From: Cristatella mucedo
Lineage: Eukaryota > Bryozoa > Phylactolaemata > Cristatellidae
NCBI GenBank assembly: GCA_009760855.2
Contig: WPIO01000013.1
Coordinates: 4,737,501-4,801,500 of the forward strand
Direction of reading: 5' to 3'
DNA length: 64,000 bases
Part shown: one piece after another, positions 26,174 through 53,693 of the stretch
How the letters are laid out: each line of letters begins with the position of its first letter
Numbering within the stretch: the stretch's first letter is position 1
Position numbers and translations under genes: made by a program
The notes under the pieces: model-generated
The model's database searches: none
What the model was told of the DNA's origin: nothing
Seen by the model: the letters and a program-made list of their open reading frames with translations, nothing else

Positions 26174-26521
26174 TCAAAGGAAGGTCGCGGCGGCGATCCA
26201 CAGAAGCAAGCCGCCAGCAGCCCGTCGAGCGGCCGTCGCGCCAGCAGAGGCGGCGAGCATCCTCTGGTATTCGTAGTAGATGGAGAAGTCGGCCACGTCG
26301 TCGACGGCGGCGGCGGCGGCCGCCGCCGCCGCCGGGAGCGTGTATTCGACGTGGTTGCAGCCGCTCTGGCCGCAGCAGAAGTGACACACCGTTCCGTCGT
26401 TGACGCAGTGGTGGCCTCGATCGTCTTGCTCGTGCGGACAGAAAGACTTTGGCGCGCAGCGCAGATGGAAGTGCGTCACGCGCCACTCACCGCCGCCGAC
26501 GAGCTGATTGATGTACGTACC
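26174..26521 (-). CDS. Exon: LU (CD59-like) second half and GPI-like tail
   Basis: Reads [20 protein letters not shown] then RCAPKSFC and [14 protein letters not shown]-x5-C and CC-x4-CN have the same spacings as in CD59. After the domain come a nine-alanine run, an ASAGA segment suited to an omega site, and the C-terminal hydrophobic end [13 protein letters not shown] then TGA: a likely GPI-attachment signal. The acceptor is taken at the CAG before GGT; an acceptor 18 bases upstream (adding IYLSSQ) keeps the same frame. Two extra cysteines (HHC and TVC) sit between the CAPKSFC and CC motifs. Confidence 0.8.
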   Translation of the reverse strand, partial: GTYINQLVGGGEWRVTHFHLRCAPKSFCPHEQDDRGHHCVNDGTVCHFCCGQSGCNHVEYTLPAAAAAAAAAVDDVADFSIYYEYQRMLAASAGATAARRAAGGLLLWIAAATFL

Positions 26522-27878
26522 CTGCGACGACAGATAGATCTCGCAGACGCTAGCCCTAGTAGATAGTGCACTCTCAGCCAGTAGCAAACCTGCATGGCAG
26601 CGGCGGCGGCCGTGGACGGGCCGAATCTGGTAATGCACTTTTACCGGAGAATGCACTTTTAGCAATAGCAATTAGCCAACGCCGCTGCAGTCTGGGTAGC
26701 GACGAGCGACCAAGTGTCGTCTGTAGCCGCTCTGTAGTCAACTCGAGCCCCTCCCCTCCCCTCACCCCCGCCGCTTTTCGGCTGGCGCCAATCGGGACGC
26801 CTTCGGCAGCAGGTGCGCGAAGCCAGAAGGGCAGGCGAGCAGAGCTTACGTAGCAAACCTCGTACGTCTCGCACTGAACCAGCGACGACGTCTCGTTGCA
26901 GCCGGTCACTTGGTCGCAGACGTAGCACGCCAGCGGGTCCGGAACTGCGATCGAAAACCGTACCATTTCCGGACAGTGTGCGAGGCGTGCAGGTCAAAAA
27001 GCGGCGGGAGGCCTGAAGCGAAAGCTCCGAGGCGGAGGACGATGAGGAGGACGATGAGGAGGAAGAAGAGGAGGAGAGGCGCGAGAGAGCTCGGAGCCTC
27101 TCTCTCTTTGCGGATCTTTGCTCGAGCTCATTTACACTATCGCAGCGTCACCAGCAAAGTTGCCAGACCGAAAGCGGCGCTAACGATATCGGCGCTAACG
27201 ATATCCTCCAGCAGAGAAGCGGCGGCTCAGCTGCCTCGGAGCACGCGGCGCTATCGATCTATATCGAGCTCTCGCGCCCACAATGCTGCTCGGCGGCCAG
27301 GCGTCTGCAGTGAGCAGGCGAATAGTGAACAACGTGTGCTCCACGTATGCCAATTGTACGCCTGCTTTTTTTGCACGAGCGCTTCGCTTCCGGCACAATT
27401 CGATGCATCGGCTTTTTAATCGCCCCCCCCCAATGTCGACAGTACCCGGACTTTCACTTTCACTATCACTGCATGTCAGCTTCAGGGGGGGCTCTTGTAG
27501 CGAAAGCAAAGCTGCACAGGGCGCCAGGCTGCACTTTCATTCCTTACGTCAATGGCCGTTTAGGATCCGTCGCGGATTCAGCCCGACGGATCCAGCTGCT
27601 GTCGAAGCATCACGTTTTCATGGCCTGGACTACGGAGGCTAGTTGGTCGCGAGAGCGGGCTGAATTTAACTGCCAACCTCCGCCAACACAAATGCAGCTC
27701 ACTGCTTTCACCGTGCAACTCAGGCGACTTAGTAGTTTAAGTGGATATTTATTCACAGAAGAAAAAATGAAAGTGGCTTAGTTAGGCAGTAACAGCACTG
27801 TTATGTCTTGCTTAGCAAACCAGTCAGTGACGAACTTCCGTTCTAGAGCACCACAACACAGCATAGCTAGGCTAAGAC

Positions 27879-27964
<86 letters not shown>

Positions 27965-30900
27965 AGAGAGAGAGAGCGATAGAGAGAGGAGGAGGAGGAG
28001 AGGGAGAGGAGAGAGAGAGAGGGCAGAGAAAGATGGATGGATGCACGCACGGACGGCCGCACGGACGGATGGATTTTTCGATGGATGAATGGACGGATAA
28101 GAGCTACTAGAACAAACAAAATAAGTTAAGAGTACTGTGTTCAGACAGCCCACCCATGCATCGGGCAGAGTAGTAGCCGGGCGATTGTCCTACACTCCTC
28201 AATAGCAGCCGACGTGCAACTGCTAACATTAGGGTGTTTATTAATGCAATCAGCTGCGACATCACGCCAGTAGTACGACGGAGCTACAAAGTGTAGCCAA
28301 ATTAATTAGACTTCTTCAGCGGATAGCAGCTAATGGCCATCGTGAGTCGTTACTGGCTCGCAACTTCGCAGCGACCGGACAATAACAGAATCTCCTTAAA
28401 GGAGCTGGTGCTACTTTGTGAGCGATTGCTCTTCGACGGGCATTTAAGGAATTCCGATTGAACGACCCAAGTATAAAGGCAATCTACTTCACTACGACCG
28501 TGCAGACGAACAGAACGTTCCTTAAGACGCACCTTGCGACTGGCATATTAATTCAGCTAGTTGTATATGTATTTAGTTTAGAAATCAGATTGGCTACTCA
28601 AATTTTATCTCATAGGCGCCATCACTGCATGTTTGGTGCCTCATCAAATGTCGCCAGTAAAAAGGGAAAGAGATAGAGAGAACAGCCAGCCGACGTTCCC
28701 ATAGAACGGCTCGGCGATGGAGAGAGACGCTGCGGCTTAGCGCATCAACCCTAGCCGAGGCATAACGGCCTTTGTCGTGTCGGCACCACTCTCGCCTCTG
28801 GGTTCGCCTCGAGTCTCGTTCCGGATATCGAGGTTTCAACGCAAGCACCCAGCAACCGATGATTGCCGACGCTAATCTGAAGGCACGAAACCATCCAAGG
28901 CCGTCTGCCGCGGTACTGGACACTGCCGGCAGTCTCGTCCGTGCGTGTGCCGATGCAGCAACCACTAGCTGGCTGAGCCGCAGCAATAGGAACTGAGCAA
29001 TTCTAGATTTCCGGGGGCGCGACCGCACCGACACACAATCGGCCCCTAATCCCGGCGCGAACTGCACGACCGCCGCATCTGTACGGTTTCTTAATCGTAT
29101 CTCTGCATATTTCCATTTAATTGTAATTCCGCAGCCGGAGGCCCGTATGCAGCTGTCGCGTCTGCTCCGGTCGGTGACCGATCGACCGACATTGACAGCT
29201 CGGATCTCTGCTGTCCAAGATGTCAGAAGATGCTGATCCAAGATGCCAGGCTAGGCCTCTGCGGGCCTTTCAAGAGCCACCGCATACCCAACGTGACAGC
29301 GCTGACAGCGAAACTACACGAGCACGCTTTTAGACTGCCTAGCGGCGCCTCACCTTAGAGACCCGAGCATACCTTGACAGGCGGGGAAAGGCCCGGCCCA
29401 CTGGCCGTCGCTTTGGCACGTGACGGACTCGAAGCTCAGTCCGCTTCTCAGGACGTAGCCGTCATTGCACCAGTAGTTTATCGTCGTGCCGTAGACGATG
29501 TCGTACTTGTCGTACGTGCCGTTTGGAACGTGAGCTGGCGGAGGCGAACAGTACACATCTGCAAGCGCGAGAACGACGCATCCGCATCCGGGGCGTGTCG
29601 TCTTCTCGTCGTCGAGCCGCAGGACGGGAAAACGCGTGGAGAAAGCGTTCTCCTTAGGCCATACACAGCCACTTTGCCCGGTTGCCCGAATGCCTCGCTC
29701 CCCGATCGGAGCGAGGCGAGGTCGCTAGCGAGCGCGCTAACATTAATACCAATAAATTGGTAGGCATCGCACGGCCTCTATGGAATCCTCTCAGCGAGCT
29801 TTGCCGATTGGTGCTACAGCGCTATTAAGGCGTGCTCGCCGGGTGCCTCGATCTTGGACTCGGCGTCACTTTCGGTTTGGACGCACATTTCGAAGCTCTC
29901 GCGGGCCGCGCTCGAAAGATACCGATCGACGTCTTTGGGCACTGGCACTGGCACTTCAAAAGGCTTCTGAACACAAGCGCATTTACTCATTTTTAGACAA
30001 GGCGACGTTCTACGATATTGATCAAGGATGGTCGTCTAGCCAATTCAGAAAGAACACCAACAGTTCGTCTCCGGGGGCATTTTCACAGCTGCCTGCGGGT
30101 CTCTTTAGACAAAGCTATCGGCAGCGTCTAAAAAAGCGTATAAAAATATAATTCATTTGTATAGCACCCCAATAGAACTTAATCTCTATTCAGGCGCTTT
30201 ACATATGCCTCGGGGCTAGAGCCCACGACCTCAGCCAGACCTTGGCCGGGGCGAGCGCCTTAACCGCCGGACCAATCCAGCTCTATATAAAACACGTGTA
30301 CGTATTCTCCAAAAGCTCGAGGGATTTTGGAGAGCATAATAGAATTCAGAATGGCACTCAGCTGCAGCCACAAGCTTTGCCGGTGCGACTGTGACCGAGA
30401 CGCTATCCACTTGGGCTGCAAGGCCCCAAAAAAGGCCCAGTTACAAAAAACTCGGGATGCTGGACGATGGCATCAACGAACGATCTGTCAGACCGCGGGC
30501 ATCACCCTTAAGAATCATCAGAAAGCCCTCGGGTAACCCTAGAGTTGATTGCTGTGATTATTGAAAACTTAATGAGGTCACAGTGAGCGACAGCTATCAA
30601 TAGCCCAATCTCACAGAGAAGCTGGGTCTTCTTTACAAAGCCACGTTCTTTAGCAGCCTCGATATGAGTTACATCCGGTTACCATCAAACTGCGGCTGTT
30701 GAAGCATATAGACAGAAATCGCCTTTGCATCACTTTGCAATTGCCTCTACAAGCATGATCGTATCCAATTCGGACTCAACGATAGCCCTGGGACATTTTA
30801 ACGTGTTGTCAATGACCTCATGCATGTGCTTGACACAGAAGATGTCCTGGCATGCCTCAACAACTTCCGTTTGCTTCCACAAAACTTGGGATGAACATAT

Positions 30901-33900: not shown

Positions 33901-36900
33901 TCATTGAGTGTTAACAAAGGCTGGTGAGAGTAACAGCCATGCTCTGTTCAGCAGTGGTACGAGGTGCAGTCAAGCGAAGCGACGTGCAGCCAAGCGAAGG
34001 CACACTAGCTTTCATTAGATGCTTCCTTAACCCGTTTTTCTATTAATAAGAATAATAACAAATCTGTATAGTGACTCAGAGAACTTCTTATCTTTCTGTG
34101 GAACTGATTTTGCAAGGGAAGCATGGTCGAATGGTTAGTGGTAGCATGCCGAGTGACAGCAAGCATAACATAGTTAGAGGTGACATGCACAGGGTCAGCA
34201 TGCGAATATGGTTAGTAGCAGCATGCACACTGTCAGCACGTATAAGCACTTGAAGGAAGAATCACACGGATCCAAAAAATGCTGTGATAAATAGATGCGT
34301 TTTAGCTTCCTTTAAAACGTCTTCAAATCAGGGGATGTCGTGATGCCAGTTGGAAGTGAGTTTTTAGGCTTTGAGAGCATACAAACTAGAGGCGCGCTCT
34401 CCGAAAGATGTGAGGTACGTACGAGGTGCATCAAGGGCGTCAATCGTTTGCTACCTTCGCGCGTACGACTGAGACCGCTTACGATCTGATGACGATTGCC
34501 GGAACTTGCTGCGCAGAGACTGGAGAGCTTCGTCCGTCGCTTCGAGGCATTGACGCCTTGCCACGCTGCTTGCTCACCTGAACAAGCCGCTGGTAGCACG
34601 GGATCCCACACCGCGACGTCGTTGCATCTCACGCGTACGCTAAGCAAGCCGGGTTGGAACCAAAGGCCAGTGTTGCAAGTGTAGATAATCGCTGCCCCGT
34701 ACAGCCAATCGATCGGATTCGTCATCGACGCATTGGCTGGTGGCGCTGGCGGCTCTTTGCACAACTTCCCTGGAAAAGAGACGAAGGGTACAAGGTCGAG
34801 GCCGAAGCGTGAAGCGCTCGTGCCTGCTGAGAGTTCTGCACTAGGGCAAATGACAACATCGCCCTATTGGCCTTTGGCGTTGTGTAATGCGTAGGCACGG
34901 CTGGTGCTGAAATACAATTCGACTGTGCTTACCAAAAGCCGCTTAGGCTTTGACAACTCTCCTGCATAACAAAGGCTCAGTCTTTGTGACTTTGTGGAAT
35001 TACAGACGGTGACACATCATCATCACCTTCATCATCATTATCAACATCATCATCAATATCATCATAATGAGCTGGACGCTTTTCTGCTTGCTCGTAAAAA
35101 AACATTCCCTTTCGTCCATATTCGTACTTTAATCGAATGATTATGCACTTGCTACCCAAATCATTATCTTAAATTGCCCATAGTAAGGCGTCTAAAAAAT
35201 AATCTATCGACTACTGACTCATTATTTTCACTTAGTAAATTATAACCTTCTGATGTAGTTCGTTAGATTCAATTGTAATTGTAGCTTTCCTGCAAGTGAT
35301 TTGTATTGCATTACTTTAGTTTCTAACTGCCAGGTCACTACCAAGTTTGTGAGTGGAAGACCTAGTAAAGGCCAGCAAGCATTAAGTATTATTTGATAGT
35401 TAACAACACTTACGTATTCTATGGAATCTTCCCTATCTTAGAATGCATCAAATTATTTAGTACGAATAACGGAATATTTACATTTTAATGTGATTAAATA
35501 TCTCTGCGTTTGGGAAATTTTATAGCAATGAAATGAAATGTAGCTTTGCCTGTAACTGCACAGAGCCATAAAGACTACGTGGGTGTTACTCAGGAGAGTT
35601 TTGTGTATTGTTATCACAGCCTAAGCGGCTTTTGGTACGCATTCGATAGCCAACAGACTTTATCTCACGCAATAAAAAGAAATTCAGAAGCATAGCTGAG
35701 TCAGGAGAGCGGTTGAGGATCATGTAAGTAGCAAATCAGGACAGCTGGAAAGGATGAGCAATAGTCGGCAGCTGGAGAGTAGTTGTACTTGCCTAAGAAC
35801 TGTGGAAGTGGGCTTCACAGTCTAGGAGTTGCAAAGCCAGAGCTTCTGTTGCCAACGGTCTATAAGTGGAGGCATTGTAAAGCAAATTTATTGTCAATGC
35901 AGGACCTGAGGACACGAAGAGGCTGAAACTGGTGCAGCAGTTCAGCCTCGGTATGGATGAGCGAAGCCGCAGCGGGCCGCAGCGGGTCAGCGTAAGAACT
36001 TCGCTTTGTATCCATTGATCAATAATCAGCCATCCAAGCTCTTTCAGAAAAAGACACTCATGGTCAAACCTCTGGGATTTTTAAACTAGACTAAAAACTA
36101 AACTAAAAGGGGAGAATGGAAACTGAGCGTTAGTTTGCAAGGACCTCCGTATCTAATCCAGGCTTTTTAAGCATCGGTCTAACGATGGCTCATTTGAAGG
36201 ACTTGGTTGCGACCCCTTTTTCCAAAGAAGCTGTAACAATCTCGGTTATGGCTGAGCTACGTTGGTCTGCCACTGAAGACCATGGAGATGATGGTACGGG
36301 ATCTTCAAGAGACGAGCACTTTTCACTAGAACTTATTAACGGAGCCACATCGCAGGCAGACACCTCGAAAAAGCCTTTAAAGTTTGGTCGCAGGTTGCGA
36401 TTGAGCAATTGTTTTAGTCGGTGGGGCTTTATTGAGGCATGAATGTGCTCAATTCTTTCAGTGAAGAAGGCTTAACAATTTTCAGCCGATCTGCTAATAT
36501 CTGGGAAGTGAGACCTCTCAGCATTGGCCAGCAATTGTTTACCGTCTTATAATCTATTTTGGTTCTGACTGGCAGAACTTCAGCTTTTGAGTGGATAAAA
36601 AAGCCCGGGCTTTTTTTTTAGCTTATAGGTCTAGACTTGAAGAAAGTCGTTGAAATTGACTAGATCTTCATAAGACGCAGACTTCTTAAAAGGCGTTCAA
36701 GCCTGTGCTTAAGGTGGTGCATCTTTTGAAGTTGTTTCGTAAATTGAAGGGATTCTCCACGGCTCTGTACGCGGACAGAATGTACGGGAGCATGCTCGTC
36801 AAGAGCACTCCTAAGTGTCATCTTCACTGCATCAGTGAGGGTATCGAGACTTCTTTAAGTCTCGGTGCAGATCAAGAAGGCCTGCCTGGCGTACAGATTT

Positions 36901-39900: not shown

Positions 39901-42900
39901 ATCACAGGCAGAAACATCGGAGAACTTTTTAAGAAAGGTCACAAGTTGAGGAACGGCGATTGCTTTGGTCGGAGGGGGCTTAATGGAGGCACGAATGTGC
40001 ACAATTTTTTCAGTAAAGAAGGCTGAAAACTTTTCGGCTGAGCCCTTAATATCTGGGGAGTCAGACCTCACAGCATTGGCCAGTAAATGGTTTACTGTCT
40101 TATAAATCTGTTTAGTGTCCGACTGGCAGGAATTCAGCTTTTTAATGAAAAAAGAAGCCCTGGTTTTTTAAGCTTTCGGGTGTAAACTCGAAGGAAGTCT
40201 TTAAAATTGACTAGGTCTGCCTCAGACCCCGATTTCTTGAAACGACGTTCCAGCCTGCGCTTAACACGGCGCATCTTACGGAGTTTTTTTGTAAATTGAA
40301 AGGAATCTCGACGACTTTGAACACGGATAGAGCGAACGGGAGCATGCTTGTCAAGAGCACTCCTGAGTGTCATGTTCATCGCAACAGTGAGGGCATCGAG
40401 GCTGCCGGTCGAGTCTGAATGCAGATCAAGAAGGCCTGCATCACAAACAGATTTCAAAAACTTGTCCACGTCAATGCTTTGTAAGTTACGTCGTTTGGCA
40501 AATTTGACATTGCCCTGTACGTACGAGGGAGCAGGAACAGGCTTACGGATCGTAGGGCCGATAGCCAAGCTGTCGATAGGGCGAACACAAGATGCAGTGA
40601 GGTTCTTACTGACCCACCGAAGAAGGCCCACGGGTAAGTATTTACTAGTAGCGGCATCGCACCTTATGCTAAGCAGGTCCGATAACTATCTGCGTAACTA
40701 ACTATCCGATAGCCAGCAAGCAAGCTATCCACAGCGCCGCTGGACCCTGTCCGACCAATGCACGGAGCTTTGCCAGTGCATTACATCCTGCCCCCCCCCC
40801 GCTTCGGCACTGCATGGGCATCTGCTGCAAGAAATAGGAACTCGAGGTTACTCATGCGGCAATCACATCCACATTCAGCAACTAACCGGGTGGCTCGATT
40901 AGAATTGGCTGGCCAGCTTCGCGGCGATAGAAGGCAAAATGTGATGGCCTTTATTTAGAAAGGCCGTTGAGGCCGTTAGGGGTTTCAGTGGTCACCGTGC
41001 GGTCGTGGCGAGGCGCGGACAAAAAACAATGCAGGGGGAGTGCCCCAGCCTTGTGGCCATCAATCGCCGAGAGTGGCTCGCTGCTTCGCTGGGTGGGACG
41101 TATGTAGGCCGTGGCCATGGCCGCGCCCACATCGTTTTATAAAATGCTCTGTCCGAAGCTTGAGGTGGTTCCAGCGGAGATACTCGGGCCAGCATGGCCG
41201 CTGTCGAATTTAACGCCGGCTGGAGCACTACGCTGGAGGTGTGCCGTCAACCCTGTGGAGCATTCACGACAGACTTTTCCGATTTATCCGTGGCCCCGAG
41301 TGCTTGGCTAAGCTGAACTGCCACCGAAAAATGAGGGTTTGGACGTAAGACAAGCGAATCTTGAAATATATTGACACCGCCGAGTTGGTTCATCATTAAT
41401 GACATCCCGTCTCGACCTCTGTAACTTACTACTAGCTGGTGCAAGACTCTGCAGCCAGGCTTGGCTGTCTTCAACTTTGCCAGCGCCACATTACACCACA
41501 TGAAAGCGACCAGCACTGGCTCCCCATCAAGCAGCATATCGACTTTCAGGTTATGTCACCTAACGTCAGATTAGATCCTTCTCTTGTTCCAGAAACACTT
41601 CCAGAAATGATTCCCAATCAAACTTTGCATCGTACAAGTGGCTCTTTCGCCTAGTTGCTTTGCCATGCCACTAACAAACCTCAAACCTAATCGAGACTGT
41701 GCGTTTAGTTGGCATGCTGCTAAAGTCCGGCACTCGCTGCTGACTGGCGGCACGACGTTCTTTGACTCGTTGACATTTAGAAAAAAGCTAAAAGCTGACC
41801 TGTTCCTCGCAGTGTGCGCCCCGTCCGAGTGAATTGTTCGTTTTGCGTACGACTGAACGCGTGCTGATTGAATGCTTCTTCTCCAAAAAACGTAAATTCT
41901 CTCGTAAAGAGATCTATCTCTCTTTGGTCCCTGTACAAATGTCTTGGCATTCTCATTGCATTTGCTATTCCGACATTGCTTGGGGTTTTGTCGGATGAGC
42001 ACATCTTTGCGTTTCGTACACGATCAAAACTGAGATCCTGTAGCTCTTTCTAATACCTAAAGCCAACAAGTTCGTGGCTCGCCAGCATTGACGTAACGAG
42101 TCACTGGCTGGCCCATCTTAGGTACAGTGGGTGATGTATCGTGACATTTCACAACAGCGTCCTTCTTCGATAATGAATTGCCAGCTTCTTGCGAACAGTG
42201 AGACGCTCATCGCCTGACGGTATAATATCGAGCTGCTACAAACCCTTCCAATGCTTGCAAGGCCTGGTTTAGCTATAAGCTACCTGTAATCAGTCATCCG
42301 GCGTATGCTAGTCAAGCGGCTGGGCAGTGCAGCAGCACAGTTTTCCGATGATTTGAACTCGTGCTATTAGAGTGCAGGGGTAATACTAATTACAGCACCT
42401 AGGGAATGCTAATTACAGCTCTCTAGTCACGCCATTACAGCTCCTAGGTCTTACTATTGGAGCTGATGGCTCCGTTCCCTTTCTCGAAGCATCGGAAAGG
42501 TCTTCAAGCTTCTTAGAAGACACTATTCCACAAAGAGGCCCTTATCAGCAGTGTGAGTTCTCTGCCTTAGCCGAGTTCAGCTTTCTCTTGTCGTCAAACC
42601 GTGTTTTAAAGCGTTTCGTGGCATAATGCGTACTTTCTTGTCTGAACGGGATCCCTCATTTACGTGAATGCATGCTAGCGCTCACTTGCTGAATGCTACG
42701 GTTAGCTCGACTTGGGGAACCTTTCCTGGGCGTGGTTCGTCTAGCGTTTAGAGCGTATCCTAAATTAAGGCCTACTAATGATTTCTAAGGAGCTACTAGA
42801 TGTATATGATTACTTTATTTTGATCCCAAGGCCGGATGATTATTTTGTTTGCCCATGATTACGTTATTTTGATCCCAAAGCTGGAAGAGTATGTTGGATG

Positions 42901-45900
42901 CCCAGCTATACCAACGCTGCTTGCTGGGATTCAGAGCGCCGCTAAGTCTCTGTGGGCTCTGCCCTAGGGCCCTGTGCAAAGTTTACACTTCCTAAAAAAA
43001 TTATTTAATGGTACAGCATGTTAGGAGCAGCTAGCCATAGAAAAGTCAGAAAGAAACTGACACACTGATACAAGAGCTCTTCTACGGGCACTGAAACTTA
43101 GCAATAGGAATCACTCGTGTCACATTTACGAATCTAGTTGCATGCATGCACGGTTAAGTGCCAGCGCATATTGCCAGACTGAGCAATCGGTCGAGCGAGC
43201 TGCCAAGACATGCGTGGTAGCTGCATGCAGAGCACCTACGCGCGAGCGTGAAGAGCCAGCCGAACCACCCTGTCGAACTGCGAAATCGGCCAGGGGGCGA
43301 GCTGGGCTCTTACTTTCGCACGGCGGTATGGTGGCCTGTGGAATCCATTCTCCCGTGAAGTCGCAGCTGATCGTCAGGTCTTCCTTGCCATCGGGAAATG
43401 CGTGCCCTTGCAACGGACGTGGGCACCGCGCGATGCGCCTGGCGGACACGCCTCCGGACAGGCGAGCACACCTCCAGACAGGCGAGCACACCTCCAGACA
43501 GGCGAGCACACCTCCAGACGCCCCCGAGAACGAAGCACGTGCTTCGCTGTATGAAATGCTCCTGGCGAGGTAGGCTGATTTAACAGCCTCATTTACGTAT
43601 ATAGCAGGCAGATGAGCCTTCACGGCTATCACCACCGCTTGCGGTGGTCAAAACTGAATCGACCACCGCAGGACTTGAGCCCACGACAAGGGCCGGGAAG
43701 AGCGAGCGCCTTACCCCAGGGCTAAGACCCAGCGGTGGCCGCTCGAGTTGCTCCCGGCCTACCGTAGTTGCAGAAGTAGTCCACCGATGCGCCGAAGAAT
43801 CTCTCGCCAGCACTGCGGCGCCCGTTGGCTGGAGCGCCCGGCGTCGGAGGACAGTGCACGGCTGAAAGGAACGCTGCTGCAGCCGTACAGTACATCATCG
43901 GAGACGGGCCCGGCTGGCAAGCGATGGGCACCAATGGCGCTTGCGCGGGTTTTGGGCAGAGGCCCTTCTGCAGAGTGGGCACACACTGAGCTCGTGGGAG
44001 CCAGAGATCCGACGGCCGAGGTCCGACTTGTTTAGCGCTTCCGATCGCCCGAGCCGTTCGAGCCGCTCGAGGCGCGGACCGCTCGAGGCGCGGACCGCTC
44101 GAGGCCGATTGAGAAACCGGCTGCTCGGTGCGAGGGGAGGTTCGCAATGGCTGTTGCTGCTGCTGACTCATGCCTTGGAGATTCTGCGGCAGCAGCCTTC
44201 ATTGCGCAGCCAGTGTCCCAATCAGAAGCGAGATCGAAGCGGACGAGCAGTCGCAGACGTAGCAAGAAGCTTGCAGCAGTGCAGCAGCAGCCCAACGCGA
44301 ATCCATAACCCGGAAAAGGCCATGAAGAAGAGCAGGCTTGTTGTCCTTTTATGCAAAAATTGAGGCGCATAATACAGACTGCAGGATATAGGCACTACTT
44401 GCACGATACGGGTGTTGCATGCATAATAAATCAAAGCAGTAGGTGAAACAGTCTTAAGCGCAAGCACATGACAGCGAACGTCTCGCCCGAAGAAGAGCAA
44501 ATCTTACCTCTTCATGCAAATCTTACCTCTTGGATGCAAGTAGTTGCAGCATTACATACTAAATATGCGTATCTCATGCTCCTAGGTAGTTTCTCGGGTT
44601 CAAAATCTTAGCGAAATGCACAGTAGACAGCCATTCTTTCATTCCAGACAGGGCGACCTGATATCCTACTCATCAAAACAGCGAGCGAGCTAATTTTAAA
44701 TTATACGTGTCACTTTTGAGAGCAGCCGTGCTATTACCGGGGCTGCTCAATACCGGACGCAAGCAACCTGTCACGCCCCCATACAGTACAGGTACCCTGG
44801 CCTTAAGTGAGGACGGACGGTGGCTGACTTTGTCGCAGGGGTTTTGACGGGTTAGTAAGACTGCTTTGTGGATGAAAAATACTTTCCTTAGATTGCAACA
44901 TTGTCCTACGGCCTTTTTGAGGCTGATCGCAGAACGTTGGAGCAGTACTCGGTTGGCTTTAGTCGGTTTAGTTAAAGCTACCCTTTAAGTCAGTAGGCAG
45001 ATGGTGTATTTCAAGGAATCGAGCAAGATTGCTCACTCACGATCGCTGCTTGAGAAAATGAACAGATATAAACATTTGCATTCTCCTTCCAAGGATCTGA
45101 GGTCATCGGTTCAAGGTCATCATTCCTCACAACGATTAAGCCGCTCGTGAACAGATGTACAGGTCTGATCACCATTACTGAAGAACAATACAGGTGCGTG
45201 TTCGTCAATTAATGAGCCTATTCTACCGGCGGCTTTGTTGCACAAATATGGCCATACACGCACAATTGCATAGCTATTCGATTTTTCGTCAATCTTAGTC
45301 GTGCAATGGGGCTGGTTAATTCGGGGATTGCATGGCTGAGCAAACGGGACTTCAATAACAAGGCATGACTCCCTGTTACTTAAAAATGTCGATCATACAG
45401 CCAGCCGCCCTTGTCACGTCTACATGCGACTCATGCACTCGCGACATGTTAACAGCAATCGGACCGCAAGGAGAGGCTGGGGTGTGTTGAAAAACCACGA
45501 TCGGAGAGCCCCCAGATGTTCTCCGACCTTCTCCAAATACCAAGGTCATTAATATCCGCCAAAGAAGATCAAACGTGAATAGATAGCAATGACCAGAGGT
45601 CCTTGACCTATTGCCGTCAAGCGGCAGTGTCTTTTATGCGATAGAGCTTGGCTGGATTGCGGTCTGGCATTGATAGGATAACCCTCGTGGTGGTATAACC
45701 ATCATCTAATCGGACAGATAAAGGGAGGAGTTACGAGCGATTGGAAAGACTAAAATCTGCCTCGCCCGTTCTGTGGAAGAGGGTAGCGAGGTAAGAAGCA
45801 GGTGCCTGGAAGGCACCGATGTTAACAATCTGGAAGCGTCAAAAGGGGACGCCAACCGTCGAGTGGCCATGACGGCCCTTTCAGCAATCGTGGCCGCTGC

Positions 45901-48900
45901 TTTGACCAGCCGTCCGCACCCGCACCCAGGAGCGGAACGACTTCGATGAGACTGCCAACGTTTACGGGGCTCGGTTTCCTGACCGAGATACCTTCAATTA
46001 TAAAGAAAGAGTTGGGGCGCAAGAACAAGGCGACCCTGGCGGCACCGAGTGCGGCCACGGTCGCCTAACGCCTAAAGTGGCGTGCCGCTGCAGTCGAAGA
46101 CCGACGGATGACATGGCAAGCTCCATACGCATGCGCAGGCCGCTAAGGTGGCAACAGCCGCCGACTGTTGCCGTTATTACACCTTGGCAGAGCCACGAAG
46201 TGACTGGCGCCTCTCAAACCTGCAGCCAACAGGCAACGCAGCGCACAGGCAACAACGCAGCCAATAGGCCCGAGGCGCCCGCTTCAGGCTCCTCAGCGAA
46301 TCTTACGAATGCAATCTTTGGGAGCTGCAGCAGTCCACTGTCCAGTAGTTTTGTCGCACTCGATTGTGCTTGTCGTTTCGTTCGTGCCCTGAATGTGGTA
46401 TCCCATGTAGCAGGTAACAGTAACGTTATCTCCAGGATACGACACTTCCCAGCTGAGCTGTGCATTCCTGACGCGTAGCGTCGGACACGGTCCTGTAAAA
46501 GTAGTGCGGCTTTACGCATAAGTGGTAGAACTTTGAGCTGGCCGTGCTGGCTTGCTCGCTCCAAGCCCAAGTTTTCAAATCGGTTAGACATCCGAGTATT
46601 TAGTTAGTTGCACGAGACCAGACCTCAAGCTCAGACAGCCTCGCAGTCACTCTGCATATCCCTGTCACGGTAACACTCAGGCGCTTGCCAGTACTTGCAA
46701 ATATCAAGTATATGTGACAGCGTAAACAACTTTCGCCTGCTTATCATCTGCACTGTAAAATTTAAGCGAAACTTTTTCACGTAAAGTAATATATTATTTA
46801 AAATAGTATTTCAAACTGGCGGACCTTTAAAAACCGGGGCATACGTAAAAATTGGTCTAGTTTATAAAATGGTAATCATGAGACCGAAAATGCTGCCTAA
46901 TTTGAAAAAATTAAGAGATATGCTTAGCTTTTGAGGTAATTTAGATCATTCAATTATTACATAATAACTAATTTACATCGTCATTGTCCTGGTATGGGTA
47001 TCTTAAAGTCAAGCAAAAGAAGGTGCTGTACAGCTTAGCACCACGGTATATTCTAGCGCCATGGCGCTGTACATTCTATCAAGAGATGGCGTTGTACAGT
47101 CTAGTGCCACGGTTTTGTACTGTCTATTGTCGTGGTTCTTTAAAGGAGAGGAGCGCTATAAATGGAAGAAACCGTCAAGCTGGTTTAAACCAAGAAGCGA
47201 TTGCATGCAAATTTATATTTCCTTAATCGCCCATGCATCATAAGGTGTCTCTCGCTCGTCTTGTATCAACCGGTTTGCTTGAGAATTTTACTTCAATGTC
47301 ACTAACTTGACAGGTCCTTCACTTAAAACTCCGAGTTCTTAGCTCAAGACTATAAAATACTGTGGACGTGAGAGATCCTATCGAAATGGCCAGTAAAACC
47401 AAGCTTGTGGTGAAGTACCCGCTTTTGGCAGAGATCCTTGCTCAGAGAGGCTGCACCAGCTTACCTACATTCCAATTTAGATATGCAAGTCTAAAATGCA
47501 AGTTACATAATTTCCTCTGGAGTTGTTTATATTGAGCTGCGAAGTCATTCAATATGGGTACAAAGATAATCAATCACATTCAACAAGCTGCGAGGTTCGG
47601 ATCAAGAACGTACACTAAGAGCATAAGGCCAGTCTGCTATGGCGAATAAAAAAAAGCTGATCTGACGATTGTAAAAGATGAAAAAAGAGCAGCCGGTTAG
47701 CAGCCTTATTTTGAACAGAAGCAGTTACAAAGCGACAGAGAGCCTTTACGGCTGTCACCGCCGCTTGCAGTGGGCAATGCTGGATCGCTCATTGCAGGAC
47801 TCGAACCCACGACCTCGGTCGTAGAGAGCGATCACCTTACTCCTGGGCTAAGATCCACAGGCAACAAATGAAGCTGATTTAGCACTCATTTAAATAGCGG
47901 CAGAAGACCCTTCAAAGCTATAGCCACCCTCTGCAGTGGGAATTAAAGGATCAAACACTGCAGTACTCAATCTCTCGACCTGGGTCGTGAAGCGAAATGT
48001 CATGTAATGTATCTCCGTCTGTAACTCCACAAAGTCATATTGACCACGAGGGTGTTACGCAGGAGAGTTTTGTATAGCGCACTCACAGCCTAAGCGGCTT
48101 TCGGTACGCATTCGGTAGCCAACAGACTTTGTCTCACGCAACAAAGAGAAAGTGGGAAGCATAGCAGAGTCAGGAGAGCAGTTGAGGTAGTCAGTAGCAT
48201 GGAAGTAGCAGCTCAGGACCGCTGAAAAGGATGTGCCATAGTCGGCAGTAGGAGAGTAGTTGTCGTTGCCTAAGAATTGTGGAAGCGAGCTCCACAGTCT
48301 ATAACCTACAGAGCTAAAGCTTCTGTCGCCAACGGTCTTAAAGCGGAGGAATGGGACAGCTAATTTATTGTCCACACAGGACCTGAGGGCGCGAACAGGC
48401 TGACTCTGATGCAGCAGTTCAGCTAGGTACGAAGGAGCCAAGCCGTGGCGGGCCTTGTGGGTCAGCGTAAGAACTTGGCTCTGTATCCTTAGCTCAACCG
48501 GCAACCATCCTAGCTCTTTCCGCAAAGGAGACACGTGCTCAAACCGCTGGGACTTGAAGACCAGCCTTGCAGCCATATTCATTGTCCGCTGTAGTGGCAT
48601 AATAGCTTTCTTTGGCAGCCTAGCCAAAAGGGAATTACAATAATCAAGCCAAGACAGAACTAAAGAGCTAGTTAAATCTTTTACAAGCGCAAGCGCCTTA
48701 ACCCTGGGCTAAGACCATTGGGCATATTGTACGTATATGGTGGCACATGAGACTTTTTTGGCTGTCATGTCGCTCGCTGTAGGCATTCGGTAATTGCGTA
48801 CTTCAGGAATACAACATAAGAGCTTGACCGCGTCTTTCCTTGAGCTCATCTTTCCTTGACCTGGTCTTTCCGATCTCGCAATTTCGATTTTCTCTCGACG

Positions 48901-51856
48901 TTATACGACGATCGACCTAGGCCGGTCCGCTGCTCTTGTGCCATGCCTAAAAATCGGAGCAATGCCTATCCAAGGCGACTTGATCGATCGTACTTATGAG
49001 GTTCAATAAGGCAGCCGGGTGAGGCGAGCCAATATTAAGAGCTACCTAGGCCTTTGGTTCTTAGCCCAAGGATAGGGTGCTCGGTCATAACGACCTGCGC
49101 CGTGAGATCAAGTTCTCTAGCAAATAAGCAATGCTTCATTCCCCAATGCAAGCGTAGATATTGCCAAAAAGGCTTTCCTGAACTTCATAAATGAGGCTGG
49201 CGAGTCAGCTGACATATTTTTAGTTTATTGTATCCCTTAGTGAGCTTCGCAACTTACATTCGGCCAGACAGTGCATAACATAAGCACAGGATTACTTGGA
49301 TCGCACCCGAAGTTGCCAACGAGGAAAATTGAGAAAATATCGTGAAGAGTAAACAATGACAGTACAAACTTACATTTTTTGAAATACCTGGATAGCTCTT
49401 AAGCAAGTGCTTCAACTTCAGTCTTCCTTCTCTCGAGGAAGCGCGGGCTTTTCTCCAGTTATTGCGTGCAGTTTTTAGTGGCCCCTGACTAGGGATACGA
49501 CCCTCGTCGTTTCCCTAGTCAGCGGCCACTCTACAAGGTGACACTTGCCCTCAGGCTCTGTTAGCCCCTGAGACTTCCTCAGCCTCTGCTAGCCACTCTA
49601 CGAATTCGTATTCTACGATCCCTACGTATACACGCTACATACGTAATAAAAAACGAATACAGACATTCCGATAGAGTGTAGTTCTTCTGAAGAGCAGTAG
49701 TTAGACTAGCAGTGGAATAATGGTAAACGTCGAGAGAATACTAACAAATGTGTCTAACGCTAGAAAACTGCTATGGTACCTGTTAAGAAACTAGCATACT
49801 ACAGGTTGGGTTGGAAGTTTTGAAGATCTGGAAATATAAGAAAAATCGATTATACCCACCGCGTCTAAACCGGAAGCAAAGCAACTAAAACTAAAAAGCT
49901 ACCGATCTCACAACCACATGCGACTTGTGTCACAATTTTTTTAGCCTTGATAAGTTGAGGTACATTTTACAGCTGGGTGAGGTGCATGCATTTGACGTAC
50001 AGTGGTAGCTTTGGACTTTTAAAATCCATAACTCAGTCAATACTTGGTGTAACATTGTGAAATTTTAAATGCAAGTTCAGCCCTGCTTGCAAATTACTCC
50101 AGAAGTTTATTGCTGACTTATAATTGATAATTATTGGTACACACGTCTATTATTTCAGAAAATATAGCGTCAGAAAATTGATGACGTGTGCAGTACTTAT
50201 TCAACCTAAATAAGAAATGTAAAGCAGTGATTTGTAAGCAGGGCTGGGCTCAAAAACGTTAAATTTCACGTTGATCTGTGAGCTACTGGCCGACTTGCGG
50301 AATTTAAAAGGTACACAGTTATACTGAAAATGAAGCTGCTTAAAAATCAAATGCATGCACCTAAACCAGCTGCAAACAAGTACCTCCATGTACCACAGTT
50401 CAAACAAGTTGGGACATGAGTAGCAAGCGACGCAGAGATCGGTAACTTTTTGGATATTAATAATAATAATAATGTACTTGATAAAGCGCCCACAGAGAAC
50501 TTAATTTCTTTCTAGGCACTTTACATTTGATGCAAAGGGAAATGCAATTAAATGGTAAGTAAAATCATGCTTGAAAAACAAACAAAATTAATAACATGGT
50601 TAGGGGTGACATGCACAGGGTCAGCATGCAAATGTGGTTACTGGCAGCATGCACAGTGTCAGCACGCATAAGCACGTGAAGGACGAATGACAGGGACCCA
50701 CTAAATGCTGTCCTAAATAGGTGTGTTTTTAGGTTCCTTTTAAATGTGGTCAGGTCAGGGGATGTTCTGACACAGGTCGGGAGGGAGTTCCAGGCTGTGG
50801 GAGCATACGAACTAAATGCACGGTCTCCAAAGGATTTGAGGTTTGTACGAGGTATTTCTAGACTGTTGGATTCCGAAGAGCGGGTGGTACGATGCTTGGC
50901 CTGATGCGGGAGTATGTCGGAGAGATAGGCTGGAGCCATAGAATGAAGGGACCTAAAAGTGAGCGACAAAACCTTGAAGTCAATCCGTTGCTTGACTGGT
51001 AGCCAGTGCAGGTCGGCGAGACGTGGAGTAATGTGGCAACTGCGACGTTCACGACAGACAAGCCTATCTGCGGAGTTTTGCACCAGCTGCAATCGCCTGA
51101 TCGCACATGCTGGTAGGCCAGTAAGCAGTGAGTTGCAGAAGTCGAGACGAGATGTCACGAATGCATGGACCAACTTGGACGTGGTATCCTTATCTAAACA
51201 AGCCCGAATTTTAGCAATATTATGAAGCTGAAAATAGGCAGATTTGACCGTGGAGCTGATATGTTTGTCTAACGAGAGGTCGCTTTGGAATATGACACCT
51301 AGATTTCGAGCTGAAGATTTCTAGATTTTTTGCAATCGGTTTACTTTCAGTTTGGGCCTGGTGTGCATAAACAATTTTTCCTTCTACGCGGAATTCTGTA
51401 TAGCTTCCGAACCAATTATAATATGCTTGTGTTTTGAAAGGTACGCTAAAAATTTGTTTTTCTGTCGTTCGCATTACGTACCTAGGAATATGAACTTGTC
51501 AGAAGTAGCCACTGTCGGGTGGCTATAGTCAGCACAAAAATCCTTACACTCCAGAGGCACAACAGCGTAAGGCAACCGAGGCACTGCTGGAGTAATTGCA
51601 AACAACGAGAGGGAAGATGGTCATCAAGAATCAGAGCTTGAAAATTGGTGACTTTTGACAATAATGTCCGTGTGTGGGCACGCTGCTTTCGCGCCGTAGA
51701 AATCGAAAGTCTTTGAAAGCCCTCGTTCATTAGCAGAACTCTACAGGAGCGTGTCTGAGCGTGCCCGAACGTACCTGAGCGTGTAGAGGTTTGCTACTTA
51801 CCTGCAACAGTGGAGTCATAGCGACCAAATAGAAGAAACAGTATACTAGCGAGCAT
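26174..51856 (-). CDS. Four-sushi plus CD59-like (Ly6/uPAR) GPI-type surface protein
   Basis: Model on the minus strand, 5' to 3': 51856-51802 signal peptide; 46492-46307 CCP1; 43861-43763 and 43406-43314 CCP2; 34769-34578 CCP3; 29558-29373 CCP4; 26944-26850 and 26521-26174 LU domain and tail. Each junction up to the LU domain is phase 1, the LU intron is phase 0, and the sum is 1254 bases (417 residues). All introns are GT-AG. Four CCPs plus GPI is the plan of CD55/DAF and one LU domain plus GPI that of CD59, so a membrane complement-regulator role is inferred, not shown. An undetected exon or a gene boundary between CCP4 and LU is possible; transcripts would decide. Confidence 0.6.
26850..26944 (-). 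CDS. Exon: LU (CD59-like) first half
   Basis: Between acceptor TTTTCGATCGCAG and donor GTAAGC. Reads [20 protein letters not shown] then [11 protein letters not shown]. LxCYxC is the classic opening of Ly6/uPAR domains, with five cysteines in this exon and one N-glycosylation site (NET). It begins in phase 1, matching the end of the CCP4 exon, and ends in phase 0. Confidence 0.8.
26945..27870. other. Intron sequence, no further exon found
   Basis: GC-rich with short open frames on both strands; no sushi or LU cysteine pattern. A poly-C run lies at 27422-27431. Confidence 0.4.
27875..28100. repeat. (GA)n and (GGAT/GGAC)n microsatellites
   Basis: GA repeat to about 28028, then ATGGATGGATG, CACGGACGG and similar tetranucleotide units to about 28100. 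Lies in the CCP4-LU intron. Confidence 0.9.
28100..29370. other. Intron sequence; one long frame of doubtful meaning
   Basis: A 215-codon minus-strand frame (28594-29241) has no recognised domain, unremarkable composition and lies in GC-rich intron sequence. I treat it as chance. Confidence 0.3.
29373..29558 (-). CDS. Exon: sushi/CCP domain 4
   Basis: 62 codons, phase 1 at both ends, acceptor CGCTTGCAG and donor GTATGC. Reads [54 protein letters not shown]. Four cysteines, the tryptophan before the last cysteine and the Pro/Gly pattern define a complement control module. One N-glycosylation site (NGT). Confidence 0.92.
30138..30290 (-). mobile_element. tRNA-derived SINE carrying a LINE-B-type 3' tail
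   Basis: Minus strand: tRNA-like head AGCTGGATTGGTCCGGCGG, TTAAGGCGCTCGCC, GTCGTGGGCTCTAGCCCC, then CATATGTAAAGCGCCTGAAT, AGAGATTAAGTTCTATTGGG and an AT-rich end. The last part equals the LINE-B terminus. It differs in head sequence from the commoner SINE family. Confidence 0.7.
31629..31711 (+). mobile_element. Tail-only LINE-B insertion with target duplication
   Basis: Only the terminal hairpin (AAAGTGCCTAGAGAGAGATT to GGGCGCTTTATC) and ATT tail, about 67 bp. Flanked by AATCATGT at 31629-31636 and 31704-31711. Host Gypsy sequence resumes immediately after (integrase zinc finger). It could equally be a SINE that lost its head. Confidence 0.8.
32998..33672 (+). mobile_element. LINE-B 3' fragment inserted in the Gypsy element
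   Basis: RT C-terminus ([10 protein letters not shown] in one frame; [40 protein letters not shown]), 3'UTR, hairpin and ATT tail ending near 33672. Gypsy-like sequence is seen before and after. Confidence 0.8.
34047..34425 (-). mobile_element. LINE-B 3' fragment
   Basis: Minus-strand tail (AATAATAACAAATCTGTATA), 3'UTR and a short piece of RT C-terminus ([22 protein letters not shown]). Ends about 150 bases from the CCP3 exon. Confidence 0.75.
34578..34769 (-). CDS. Exon: sushi/CCP domain 3
   Basis: 64 codons, phase 1 at both ends, acceptor CTCTTTTCCAG and donor GTGAGC. Reads [54 protein letters not shown]. Four CCP cysteines and the tryptophan are present; one N-glycosylation site (NAS). 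Confidence 0.9.
34925..35070 (+). mobile_element. LINE-A terminus followed by (CAT)n repeat
   Basis: GCTTACCAAAAGCCGCTTAGG, CTCTCCTGCATAACA and GGAATTACAGACGGTGACA match the LINE-A 3' end. Instead of ACATT repeats it runs into CATCATCA to about 35070. Confidence 0.6.
35070..35520. other. AT-rich intron sequence, nothing recognised
   Basis: Intron between CCP2 and CCP3 exons. No exon, repeat motif or long open frame. Confidence 0.5.
35528..38065 (-). mobile_element. LINE-A copy, decayed, with a tail copy inserted in its endonuclease
   Basis: Minus strand from 38065: endonuclease start ([46 protein letters not shown]), an unrelated LINE-A 3' piece at about 37250-37590, then endonuclease again (ETIVTLTTL-like; hallmark histidine region near 37100), an inter-domain part, RT start ([18 protein letters not shown]) near 36350, and the 3' end at about 36090-35528. 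Most of the RT core is deleted. Confidence 0.7.
38158..40690 (-). mobile_element. LINE-A best copy: reverse transcriptase region, 5' truncated
   Basis: L2/CR1-like element. The minus strand has three coding blocks: 40631-40134 (linker after the endonuclease, with [15 protein letters not shown]), 40071-39316 ([69 protein letters not shown]), 39340-38226 ([31 protein letters not shown] with intact YADD, to [18 protein letters not shown]). Breaks lie near 40100, 39330 and in a poly-T/A run near 38835. It ends with a short TAATGTAATG tail. No endonuclease, so immobile. Confidence 0.85.
40691..41385. other. Intron sequence, unclassified
   Basis: Includes a poly-C run near 40790-40799. No domain or repeat match identified. 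Confidence 0.35.
41388..41840 (+). mobile_element. LINE 3' fragment of a third lineage
   Basis: Plus strand resembles RT C-terminus ([30 protein letters not shown]), related to LINE-B but clearly more diverged, ending [10 protein letters not shown] then a stop. Confidence 0.6.
41841..43313. other. Intron sequence, no exon found
   Basis: Searched for cysteine-spaced frames next to splice sites on the minus strand; none found. Confidence 0.4.
43314..43406 (-). CDS. Exon: sushi/CCP domain 2, second half
   Basis: 31 codons, phase 1 at both ends; donor GTAAGA, acceptor CGTTGCAAG. Reads [20 protein letters not shown] then [10 protein letters not shown], giving cysteines 3 and 4 and the tryptophan of the module started by the next exon upstream. 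Confidence 0.88.
43441..43520. repeat. 20-bp minisatellite
   Basis: Three copies of a 20-base unit (GGCGAGCACACCTCCAGACA in one register), preceded by a diverged copy, in the intron splitting CCP2 and beginning about 35 bases from the second-half exon. Confidence 0.9.
43566..43735 (-). mobile_element. tRNA-derived SINE
   Basis: Minus strand: GGGTCTTAGCCCTGGGGTAA (A-box side), GTGGGCTCAAGTCCTGC (B box), CACCGCAAGCGGTGGTGATA, AAATGAGGCTGTTAAATCAG. It occupies half of the intron splitting CCP2. Confidence 0.85.
43763..43861 (-). CDS. Exon: sushi/CCP domain 2, first half
   Basis: 33 codons, phase 1 at both ends; acceptor GTTCCTTTCAG, donor GTAGGC. Reads [29 protein letters not shown]: cysteines 1 and 2. 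Joined to 43406-43314 it makes a complete CCP module; the others are each encoded by one exon. Confidence 0.88.
43870..46300. other. Intron between CCP1 and CCP2, no exon recognised
   Basis: Contains GC-rich frames near 44000-44370 and an unrecognised stretch at 45450-46080 whose plus strand ends [17 protein letters not shown] then a stop; it may be transposon debris but I cannot name it. Confidence 0.35.
46307..46492 (-). CDS. Exon: sushi/CCP domain 1
   Basis: 62 codons, phase 1 at both ends; acceptor CTACTTTTACAG, donor GTAAGA. Reads [55 protein letters not shown]. All four cysteines and the tryptophan are present; potential N-glycosylation at NVT and NET. The open frame in another phase over the same DNA is a shadow. 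Confidence 0.92.
46500..47685. other. Intron, AT-rich, degenerate local repeats
   Basis: Between 47030 and 47130 phrases such as GCTGTACA and TAGTGCCACGG recur imperfectly. No exon recognised. Confidence 0.4.
47690..48000 (-). mobile_element. Two SINE copies in tandem
   Basis: First: 47690-47865 (GGTTAGCAGCCTTATTT, CGCTTGCAGTGGGCAAT, B box GGACTCGAACC, CTCCTGGGCTAAGATCC). Second: 47873-48000 (GCTGATTTAGCACTCATTTA, CTCTGCAGTGGGAATTAAAG, degraded B box). Same strand, end to end, followed directly by a LINE-A. Confidence 0.75.
48003..48680 (-). mobile_element. LINE-A 3' fragment with open RT C-terminus
   Basis: Starts at its tail (GTAATGTATCTCCGTC). An open frame 48055-48627 runs from [20 protein letters not shown] to [18 protein letters not shown]. 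Nearly the same as 38226-38849, so both are fairly young. Confidence 0.85.
48686..48722 (-). mobile_element. SINE head fragment
   Basis: AAGCGCCTTAACCCTGGGCT matches the A-box end of the SINE family on the minus strand. Confidence 0.5.
49058..49215 (+). mobile_element. Degraded SINE
   Basis: GGTTCTTAGCCCAAGGATAG at the 5' end and TTCATAAATGAGGCTGGCGA at the 3' end, with the CAATGCAAGCGTAGATATTG body between. Confidence 0.55.
49477..49530. repeat. 19-bp inverted repeat (hairpin)
   Basis: Arms AGTGGCCCCTGACTAGGGA (49477-49495) and 49512-49530 pair with one mismatch around a 16-base loop. No gene around it. Confidence 0.75.
49531..50450. other. Intron, nothing recognised
   Basis: AT-rich, only short open frames. 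Confidence 0.45.
50456..51316 (-). mobile_element. LINE-B copy 4, young 3' fragment
   Basis: Minus strand. (ATT)n tail at 50456-50472, hairpin, 3'UTR and an open 202-codon frame (51173-50565) from [20 protein letters not shown] to [15 protein letters not shown]. Very close to the copy at 10882-12261. The 5' end is truncated at about 51316. Confidence 0.85.
51802..51856 (-). CDS. Exon: start codon and signal peptide of the sushi/LU gene
   Basis: Reads [19 protein letters not shown] with the last codon split by a GTAAGT donor (phase 1), as needed by the CCP1 exon 5.3 kb downstream. An in-frame TGA lies 33 bases upstream of the ATG. The hydrophobic core is short, so this assignment is the least certain part of the model. 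Confidence 0.55.
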
Positions 51857-51869
51857 TGAGATCGTTGCT

Positions 51870-52765
51870 TTCAGACGGCCTCGTTGCCGCGGTCAATAGC
51901 AAAGATGCCAGCTGACGTCATCAGGACCGGAAAGAAAAGAGCGTCAAGCGAGCTTCCATTACTCGCAGCTAAATAGAGCGCAGTGTCTTGACTTAAAGCT
52001 CTCGAGCGGGACGCTTCAAGAGGAAGTTGTTGTTGCAGAGTGAGCCTGGTTACGCGCTTAGAAACCGAGGTAGGGTGTAGAACTGCTGACATAGCAGCCT
52101 ATCCAACGCTGATACCTTGGCGCGCCACCTATTGTGTTGCTTAATCCTTTCCTAAACCAGCTGTGGTTCATTCACTACCGTTGTTGCTTGGGACGAAGGT
52201 CTTTGGCTGCTACGAGCGCATTGAAAGCTGTCCAGGTTTTTAGTAATACCATACATTTTAATATTACTTTTTTAATTTTAAAAATATTAAATAAATAAAA
52301 ATTTTTTTAACCATAGACAATTTACTCGCGTAAAACCGACTTAGCTCGAATGCCATTAACAGACCATTATGCATATTCGGTGTAATACCTGCACATTACC
52401 GTTACTCTGCTAGGCAAAGGAAAAAAAAAAACGGGAACGGTTGTGACGGCTTGCTGCGATGCTAGTGCTCCTTTCGAGTAGACCAGTAGGTGGCCTTATG
52501 ACCTTACGAGTCACAAATTCCATTGAAAATTGAATTTCAGCTCTGGACCCCTGCCTACAAAATTTCCTAAGCACATAAACACGATTTTGCCTGCAATAAT
52601 AATAATATTAATGGATGTATTTAGCAGCTAGGTGAAACAAAACGACCATCTATGAGGACAACAAAATCCCCATATATATGACAGGTATAGCATAAAAGAA
52701 GAATTTTATTTAGTTATCCATAACGTTAGATTTTTCAGAACTCGTTCGCAGAAAGGAAAATTAAA
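51870..52765. other. Presumed promoter region between head-to-head genes
   Basis: No domain-bearing frame. AT-rich with poly-A/T runs (52250-52310, 52420-52430). If both flanking first exons are real, the two genes would share about 0.9 kb of upstream DNA. Confidence 0.3.
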
Positions 52766-52769
52766 ATGG

Positions 52770-53260
52770 ATGGAGCAAATGCCGCGAGGAAAGGGTCAAG
52801 TTTTTGGTTCATTTTTTATTATTATTTTGTTATTATTATTTGTTCATTCAGCCGCCGAATCAGCAGATGACGTGATGTCATTTTATTCTGCTGTAAGTTT
52901 CTCGCTCACTTTCATACAAAAACTAATGCCCAACACAGACAAAAAATCTAATCACAATGTGTAAATTAAAAAACAAAAACAGTTGGCAATCATGCTCTAA
53001 ATTTTATTTCTATGAGATTTCTTTCTCGTTTGGCTTAATATGAAGATTAAACCAATGGACTACGTAGACATAGGTGGATTGCTTTCCGAGTTCCTTCTGT
53101 CACTCATTTCCTTTACGCAACGATGCTTGACGTGCCGCCTCAGCTAGCTGCCGCTGCTGTCGCGGATACCGCGAAGTTGAAGCCATCCGAGCTCAAAACG
53201 CCGCAAGGAAAAGAGCTTCTATCCATTTTGAGAATCACGCGAGTACTTTGTCCGTAGCAC
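52770..53260 (+). CDS. Candidate small secreted peptide (two exons), low confidence
   Basis: Exon 1 (52770-52892) reads MEQMPRGKGQVFGSF, then FIIILLLLFVHSAA and ESADDVMSFYSA, a signal-peptide shape, ending at a strong GTAAGT donor in phase 0. A possible second exon starts after CCGCCTCAG near 53150 (LAAAAVADTAKLKPSEL...) and reaches TAG near 53260. A competing ATG four bases earlier opens another frame. No family recognised. Confidence 0.25.
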
Positions 53261-53261
53261 A

Positions 53262-53690
53262 GCATGAATTGCGCGTGAGTGGACGTGCACGTGCGCGCCA
53301 CCAACCGGGTAAGTGCCATCGTCATCGTACGTGGGCCCTGTCGATGCGAGTCCGTTTTCGGATGCCCAGACAGTCTAGTACTACCGCTCAGGCTTGTTGT
53401 CATTTAGTGCTCATGCGGGTAGTAGTGCTGCCTGCTCGTTCAGCCTCTCGTATCCTGCTAGGCTTCGCTGCCAAACTGGCACTTGCATGTATCGTTGTTG
53501 CTAACTGCAATCTCCCGTTAGAACTGACGATAACACCTCGAACTGAGTGCAAAAAAAAGCCGAAGCTGACCTTGACCCTTGACCTCGAAGCTGTGATCAC
53601 TTTTAACTGGTGCCACTGGAGGTTCGCTCCTCGAGCCTCGAGCCCAGTTGTTTACAGCCTAATTCGTCTGCACTCCGTCTACGTAGACTA
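53262..53690. other. No gene recognised
   Basis: Plus strand has a 147-codon frame with no domain; codon usage and repeats give no support. Confidence 0.3.
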
Positions 53691-53693
53691 GTC

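Follow-up and report, generated by a model that had tools for sequence, protein, structure and literature searches.

A predicted gene in the DNA analysed here joins four CCP (Sushi) modules to an LU (Ly6/uPAR) domain, which would yield a membrane-anchored surface protein with a GPI-type end. As judged from the sequence, a single gene of this composition is the best explanation of the locus and one that we consider probable, and when all of the explanations that involve one gene are taken together, the case for one gene becomes fairly strong. The exons lie on the minus strand of the window, by which we mean the entire 64,000-nucleotide stretch under analysis (contig C44:4737501-4801500 of a 572-Mb assembly of 688 contigs). 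Eight of them, from 51856 down to 26174, splice into one unbroken frame of 417 residues that encodes, in order, a signal peptide, four CCPs, an LU domain divided between two exons, and a GPI-like tail (Table 1). An earlier note on this DNA had proposed the same exon coordinates, strand, order, and protein length, all of which were reproduced by our spliced model. It had also described a signal exon, four CCPs, and an LU domain with a GPI-like tail, and each was recovered, with the LU domain scoring under the Pfam cut-off and the tail being recognized by its hydropathy. The exons, their order, splice sites, and phases, as well as both domain types, can be read from the DNA itself as features of a predicted gene.

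Table 1. Features of the predicted CCP-LU gene, in window coordinates.
Feature	Position	Strand	Remark
Exon 1: ATG and signal peptide (18 residues), phase-1 donor GCAG/GTAAGT	51802..51856	-	
Exon 2: CCP1	46307..46492	-	weak donor TTC/GTAAGA
Exon 3: CCP2 first half, cysteines 1-2	43763..43861	-	
Exon 4: CCP2 second half, cysteines 3-4	43314..43406	-	weakest acceptor of the model
Exon 5: CCP3	34578..34769	-	acceptor and donor strong
Exon 6: CCP4, phase-1 donor	29373..29558	-	acceptor and donor both in best 1%
CCP4-LU intron (2428 bases)	26945..29372	-	
Exon 7: LU cysteines 1-5, phase-1 acceptor	26850..26944	-	moderate acceptor score
Exon 8: other LU cysteines, alanine run, tail, stop	26174..26521	-	
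GPI-signal-like C-terminus (28 residues)	26177..26260	-	hydropathy only

Gene structure and splice sites

All seven introns are of the GT-AG type, and their phases are 1, 1, 1, 1, 1, 1, and 0 in order. The earlier statement that every inter-domain junction is in phase 1 was borne out, as the sole phase-0 intron falls inside the LU domain and the other six are all phase 1. Splice sites were ranked with a generic consensus. By this generic measure, the scores were good at exons 1, 5, 6, and 8, while the exon 7 donor was in the best 6.0%, the LU acceptor at 26944 in the best 7.1%, the exon 3 acceptor in the best 9.4%, the exon 2 donor in the best 15% of GTs, and the exon 4 acceptor in the best 23% of AGs. 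A strict scan for phase-1 signal exons on both strands of the window returned exon 1 as its single match. The model contains 28 cysteines, of which 12 belong to the LU domain and four to every CCP, and the last 11 residues of the putative GPI tail have a hydropathy of 2.39.

Domain content of the model

Comparison of the whole model with the Pfam Sushi profile detected four matching stretches (72 bits, E 5.4e-20). The open frames of CCP1 and CCP4 each passed by themselves (E 1.3e-6 and E 6.9e-10, respectively), as did CCP2 after its two exons were joined (24.4 bits vs. a cut-off of 20.7), while CCP3 alone scored 17.0 bits and was under the cut-off. CCP3 has a counterpart exon elsewhere in the same genome (contig C528), with 46.5% identity over 43 residues. 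With a CCP profile that was in part derived from these exons, only these four CCPs were detected at E <0.5 in 124 kb.

The LU domain was matched by UPAR_LY6 with 21.4 bits when the 94 residues were taken alone (E 3.6e-4, profile positions 3-81/82), with 19.4 bits in a 147-residue C-terminal piece, and with 16.0 bits in the whole model (E 0.017), all of which are under the curated cut-off of 24.8. None of nine shuffled LU sequences was matched, neither the four shuffled in full nor the five with their cysteines kept in place. The unspliced open frame of exon 7 scored 17.5 bits, below cut-off, with Activin_recp, which is a relative of the LU fold. The cysteine pattern begins with C-x2-C and ends with CC-x4-CN, and the count of 12 differs from the plesiotypic 10. 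The LU-internal intron follows cysteine 5 and precedes cysteine 6, which places it in loop 2. LU genes generally have an intron in loop 2, and a Ly6-type gene normally consists of a signal exon and two LU exons with flanking phase-1 introns, the last exon also carrying the GPI signal, according to a 2019 LU review (PMC6600238). The exon pair in the window fits this standard structure, with its phase-1 entry, its loop-2 intron, and a GPI-like signal, judged by hydropathy, in the last exon.

LU and CCP loci elsewhere in the genome

At E<=1e-3, this assembly contains a minimum of 80 Sushi matches. A search of the genome with the CCP part of the model gave 50 matches at E<=10, consisting of its own exons and distant CCP exons, and the locus nearest in kind has four CCP exons on one strand of C528 (800.2-805.0 kb). 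Clusters of many Sushi exons are found on C71 (348-549 kb), C30 (329-350 kb), and C442 (5227-5282 kb), and these are apparently expanded CCP gene families.

No close copy of the LU domain was found in the genome, as the search yielded five matches at E<=10, two of which are the domain itself. Among the weak matches, C332 proved to be an unkempt-type zinc finger, the protein that the LU domain also matched in the PDB, and nothing LU-like was recognized in the reverse frames of C624 and C561. With UPAR_LY6, the genome search identified three exons below cut-off (on C95, C11, and C49), and inspection of their translations showed each to be LU-like and to end in a hydrophobic tail. Applied to these pieces alone, the profile was passed by C95 (25.7 bits) and not by C11 or C49, and no Sushi matches are listed on any of the three contigs. 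The C49 locus (218.7-218.9 kb, reverse strand) is a solitary LU gene of the quiver type, with a signal exon, an LU-N exon (CYQC...), and an LU-C exon with a hydrophobic tail, and it scored 19.8 bits with QVR and 17.6 bits with UPAR_LY6, both below cut-off. Its LU-internal intron is apparently phase 1, as opposed to phase 0 in the window gene. Two CCP loci were read for a following LU domain, C528 (802-822 kb) and C155 (528-538 kb), and neither has one after its CCP exons. A regular-expression flag at C528 813.8-814.2 kb was discarded, as it consisted of two overlapping frames without an LU ending. Thus, within these two stretches and the LU copy search, no second locus with the CCP4-LU layout was found.

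One gene or two

The phase-1 donor of CCP4 can be joined to the phase-1 LU acceptor without a change of frame, and neither half of the model is complete by itself. The 2.4-kb interval between the two halves is where a two-gene arrangement would have to show itself. In such an arrangement, which we think rather unlikely, a four-CCP gene (secreted or anchored) would end in the gap and an adjacent Ly6-type GPI gene on the same strand would begin there, for example at 28262-28154. That the LU exon pair has the standard structure of Ly6 genes (PMC6600238) speaks for two genes, as does the presence of solitary LU genes in the same genome. The distribution of poly-A signals points the same way: the gap contains AATAAA at 28242 and 27753 and ATTAAA at 29121 and 27420, whereas neither hexamer occurs in the 1.7 kb 3' of LU (26174-24500), where only weaker variants are present. 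Moreover, if the intron after CCP4 were retained, translation would stop after seven further residues (GMLGSLR).

The search for a separate LU start argues against this arrangement. A relaxed scan for phase-1 signal exons in the 124-kb neighbourhood (248 kb of strand) produced 30 rows, with exon 1 and its duplicate, described below, at the top. A phase-1 signal-like exon does exist in the gap, in favour of two genes, but it is the only row there and ranks 21st of 30, and about 0.3 such rows are expected in the gap by chance. It has a hydropathy of 2.21 and a donor score of just 0.2, whereas the donors of exon 1 and of the C49 signal exon score 8.9 and 4.0, respectively. The solitary C49 gene served as a positive control, for which the same scan returned a single row in 3.2 kb (hydropathy 3.02), located about 0.9 kb before the first LU exon. 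No signal rows were obtained for the 3.1-kb loci on C95 and C11, in each of which the second LU exon alone was recognized, and the scan is therefore validated on one gene only. Directly upstream of LU, then, this chance-level candidate is the only signal exon, and no convincing one was found.

An ending for the CCP half was sought in the same interval. In the gap, six acceptors are followed by a frame that contains a hydrophobic stretch. Three of these acceptors share a single open frame, the other three lead through a CT repeat, and a scan for hydrophobic ends found no anchor-like terminal exon. This again weighs against two genes, except that a secreted CCP protein would need no hydrophobic end and would escape a scan that covered such ends. 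The missing ends of both genes would also have to fit into the gap. Of the two observations that the earlier note had named as telling against its one-gene reading, a separate signal exon for LU is thus represented by a chance-level candidate only, and for the other, transcripts with a stop and poly-A in the gap, the sequence offers candidate poly-A hexamers. One gene would be the simplest reading, because the gap, unlike the solitary LU gene on C49, holds only a chance-level signal exon. This reading draws upon features that are missing between CCP4 and LU and is partly supported.

For a single gene, the CCP and LU exons would be spliced together into one message. With regard to its origin, the two LU-GPI exons that end a Ly6-type gene were probably added to a set of CCP exons, an event that phase-1 introns at the junction would permit. 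The solitary LU exons with hydrophobic tails on C95, C11, and C49 indicate that donor genes for such a fusion do exist.

Exon 1 and a possible alternative start

Exon 1 resides in an 18.2-kb block (window 46949-64000 plus 1168 bases beyond it) that is present as a direct repeat 26 kb upstream, with 99.67% identity. In window coordinates the other copy spans 72929-91157, and the sequence at the left breakpoint is unrelated. The repeat could be either a recent duplication or an assembly haplotype that was not collapsed. Within the block, 54340-54634 consists of 10.9 copies of a 27-base unit (98% matches), which is also found in the duplicate.

The distance of exon 1 and its position in duplicated DNA are compatible with one gene whose main product is shorter, for instance with three CCPs and a start at 43898, but we consider this highly improbable. 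An in-frame extension upstream of CCP2 (43898-43862, minus strand) might provide an alternative signal start, and this start accounts for the 9th and 10th of the 30 signal-like rows. It may, however, be mere read-through of the acceptor tract. Furthermore, the best signal and donor score belongs to exon 1, and CCP1, which a shorter product would omit, is preceded by a good acceptor and scores clearly as Sushi.

Possible functions of the encoded protein

In the single-gene model, the tail would be exchanged for a GPI anchor, and the row of CCPs would most likely form a rod that reaches out to bind a ligand, which might be a partner on a different cell or else an opsonin or thioester-type protein. 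The LU domain, positioned at the membrane, could act as a folded spacer and as a lateral contact for other membrane proteins. Both CCP and LU are general-purpose binding modules.

A more specific role would be that of a bifunctional complement shield, with the CCPs taking apart C3 convertases and the LU domain blocking the membrane attack complex (MAC), and we judge this to be very improbable. By sequence, the CCP region matches PDB entries of complement receptors and of CD55, which is common for CCP arrays. The idea gains further from a published engineered chimera that reportedly regulates C3 convertase as well as the MAC (Fodor 1995, title cited in PMC4816337) and from the 20 matches to the thioester domain (TED_complement) in the genome. 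One thioester sequence on C88 was read with its motif, PWGCGEQNM, and counts against the idea, since it resembles what we take to be the A2M/CD109 type. As a separate observation, TED_complement exons are clustered on C122 (3202-3436 kb) and C88 (4166-4172 kb). Stops interrupt some of them in six-frame translation, and the arrangement on C122 suggests a tandem family.

For the LU half, the PDB returned no CD59 at E<=10, and its single match was an unrelated zinc-finger protein. An exon-by-exon search of the 572-Mb genome for MACPF found no match at E<=1e-3 with two candidates scored, which is weak evidence against a pore to be blocked, given that a 214-position domain split by introns may escape such a search. 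CpG dinucleotides are undepleted (observed/expected 1.04), unlike in methylated vertebrate genomes, which probably speaks against a typical methylated vertebrate genome and hence against a vertebrate-like setting. The proposal of the earlier note that one gene might do the jobs of both CD55 and CD59 consequently found no support in these three results, and a double role in complement is unlikely. A more far-reaching version, a natural single-chain shield with CCPs that regulate convertases or opsonins and an LU domain that blocks pores, which would have arisen separately from CD55 and CD59 of vertebrates when a phase-1 LU exon pair was shuffled onto a CCP gene, we likewise hold to be scarcely probable. 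The general mechanism outlined above is the most likely one.

Comparison with known proteins

Searches of the protein database recovered no relative with the CCP-LU layout. The whole model gave no match at E<=10 among the 7995 scored candidates that shared most words with it, a set that alanine words may crowd, while residues 79-362 gave one match among 442 candidates, a CCP-only protein. Similarly, the earlier note knew of no characterized protein with a CCP4-LU-GPI layout, and none combining CCP/Sushi with LU appeared in the titles and abstract openings of the open-licence literature, among the matches listed. In a survey of 48 starfish LU proteins (PMC11595613), the words sushi and CCP are absent from the main text.

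The closest parallels are to the separate halves. CD55, a member of the vertebrate RCA group, likewise has a signal peptide, four consecutive CCPs, and a GPI-type end, features that are predicted here from the gene model and from tail hydropathy. Between CCP4 and its anchor, CD55 has a Ser/Thr-rich stalk, whereas the window gene has the LU domain and an alanine run in its place. It also differs in that CCP2 is split by a phase-1 intron and in that the genome is probably not that of a vertebrate. The LU half shares with CD59 and other single-LU GPI proteins the two LU exons, the loop-2 intron, the phase-1 entry, and a GPI-like signal in the final exon (PMC6600238). In contrast to the CD59/Ly6 type, it lacks a convincing signal exon of its own and has four CCPs in front of it, and its sequence has no similarity to CD59 that was recognizable in the PDB search.

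A few proteins do join LU to non-LU sequence. In the examples named next, the partner is a disordered segment or, for the TGF-beta receptors, a transmembrane kinase, whereas a row of CCPs is predicted here. GPIHBP1, SP-10, and the ectodomains of TGF-beta receptors are the examples given in the LU review (PMC6600238), which also regards LU as probably no true mobile module, being found mostly alone or repeated with itself. If our model is true, the CCP4-LU-GPI gene would clearly exemplify the shuffling of LU onto another classical phase-1 module, and it would also provide a natural test of how useful it is to have CCP and three-finger domains together near the membrane. Should transcripts confirm it, this would be a new architecture built from known modules and not something categorically new.

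The man-made construct attributed to Fodor et al. in 1995 reportedly has the order DAF-CD59-GPI, is said to be assembled from human parts, and was reportedly directed at C3 convertase as well as the MAC. The present case differs in being a natural locus with a putative function.

Neighbouring features of the window

No Rfam match was found in the window, and ARAGORN made one tRNA call of 93 bases, which is doubtful. Broken frames of non-LTR reverse transcriptases are located at 38229-40167, 48058-48708, and 50568-51320 on the minus strand and at 10868-12025 on the plus strand, and several of them fall inside introns of the CCP-LU gene; we presume that these elements are L2-like. At about 1000-5300 on the plus strand, convergent to the CCP-LU gene, are exons of a cGMP-dependent protein kinase separated by short introns, with cGMP-dependent protein kinase 1 being the best PDB match of the stretch at 3754-4329 (E 7.5e-49).
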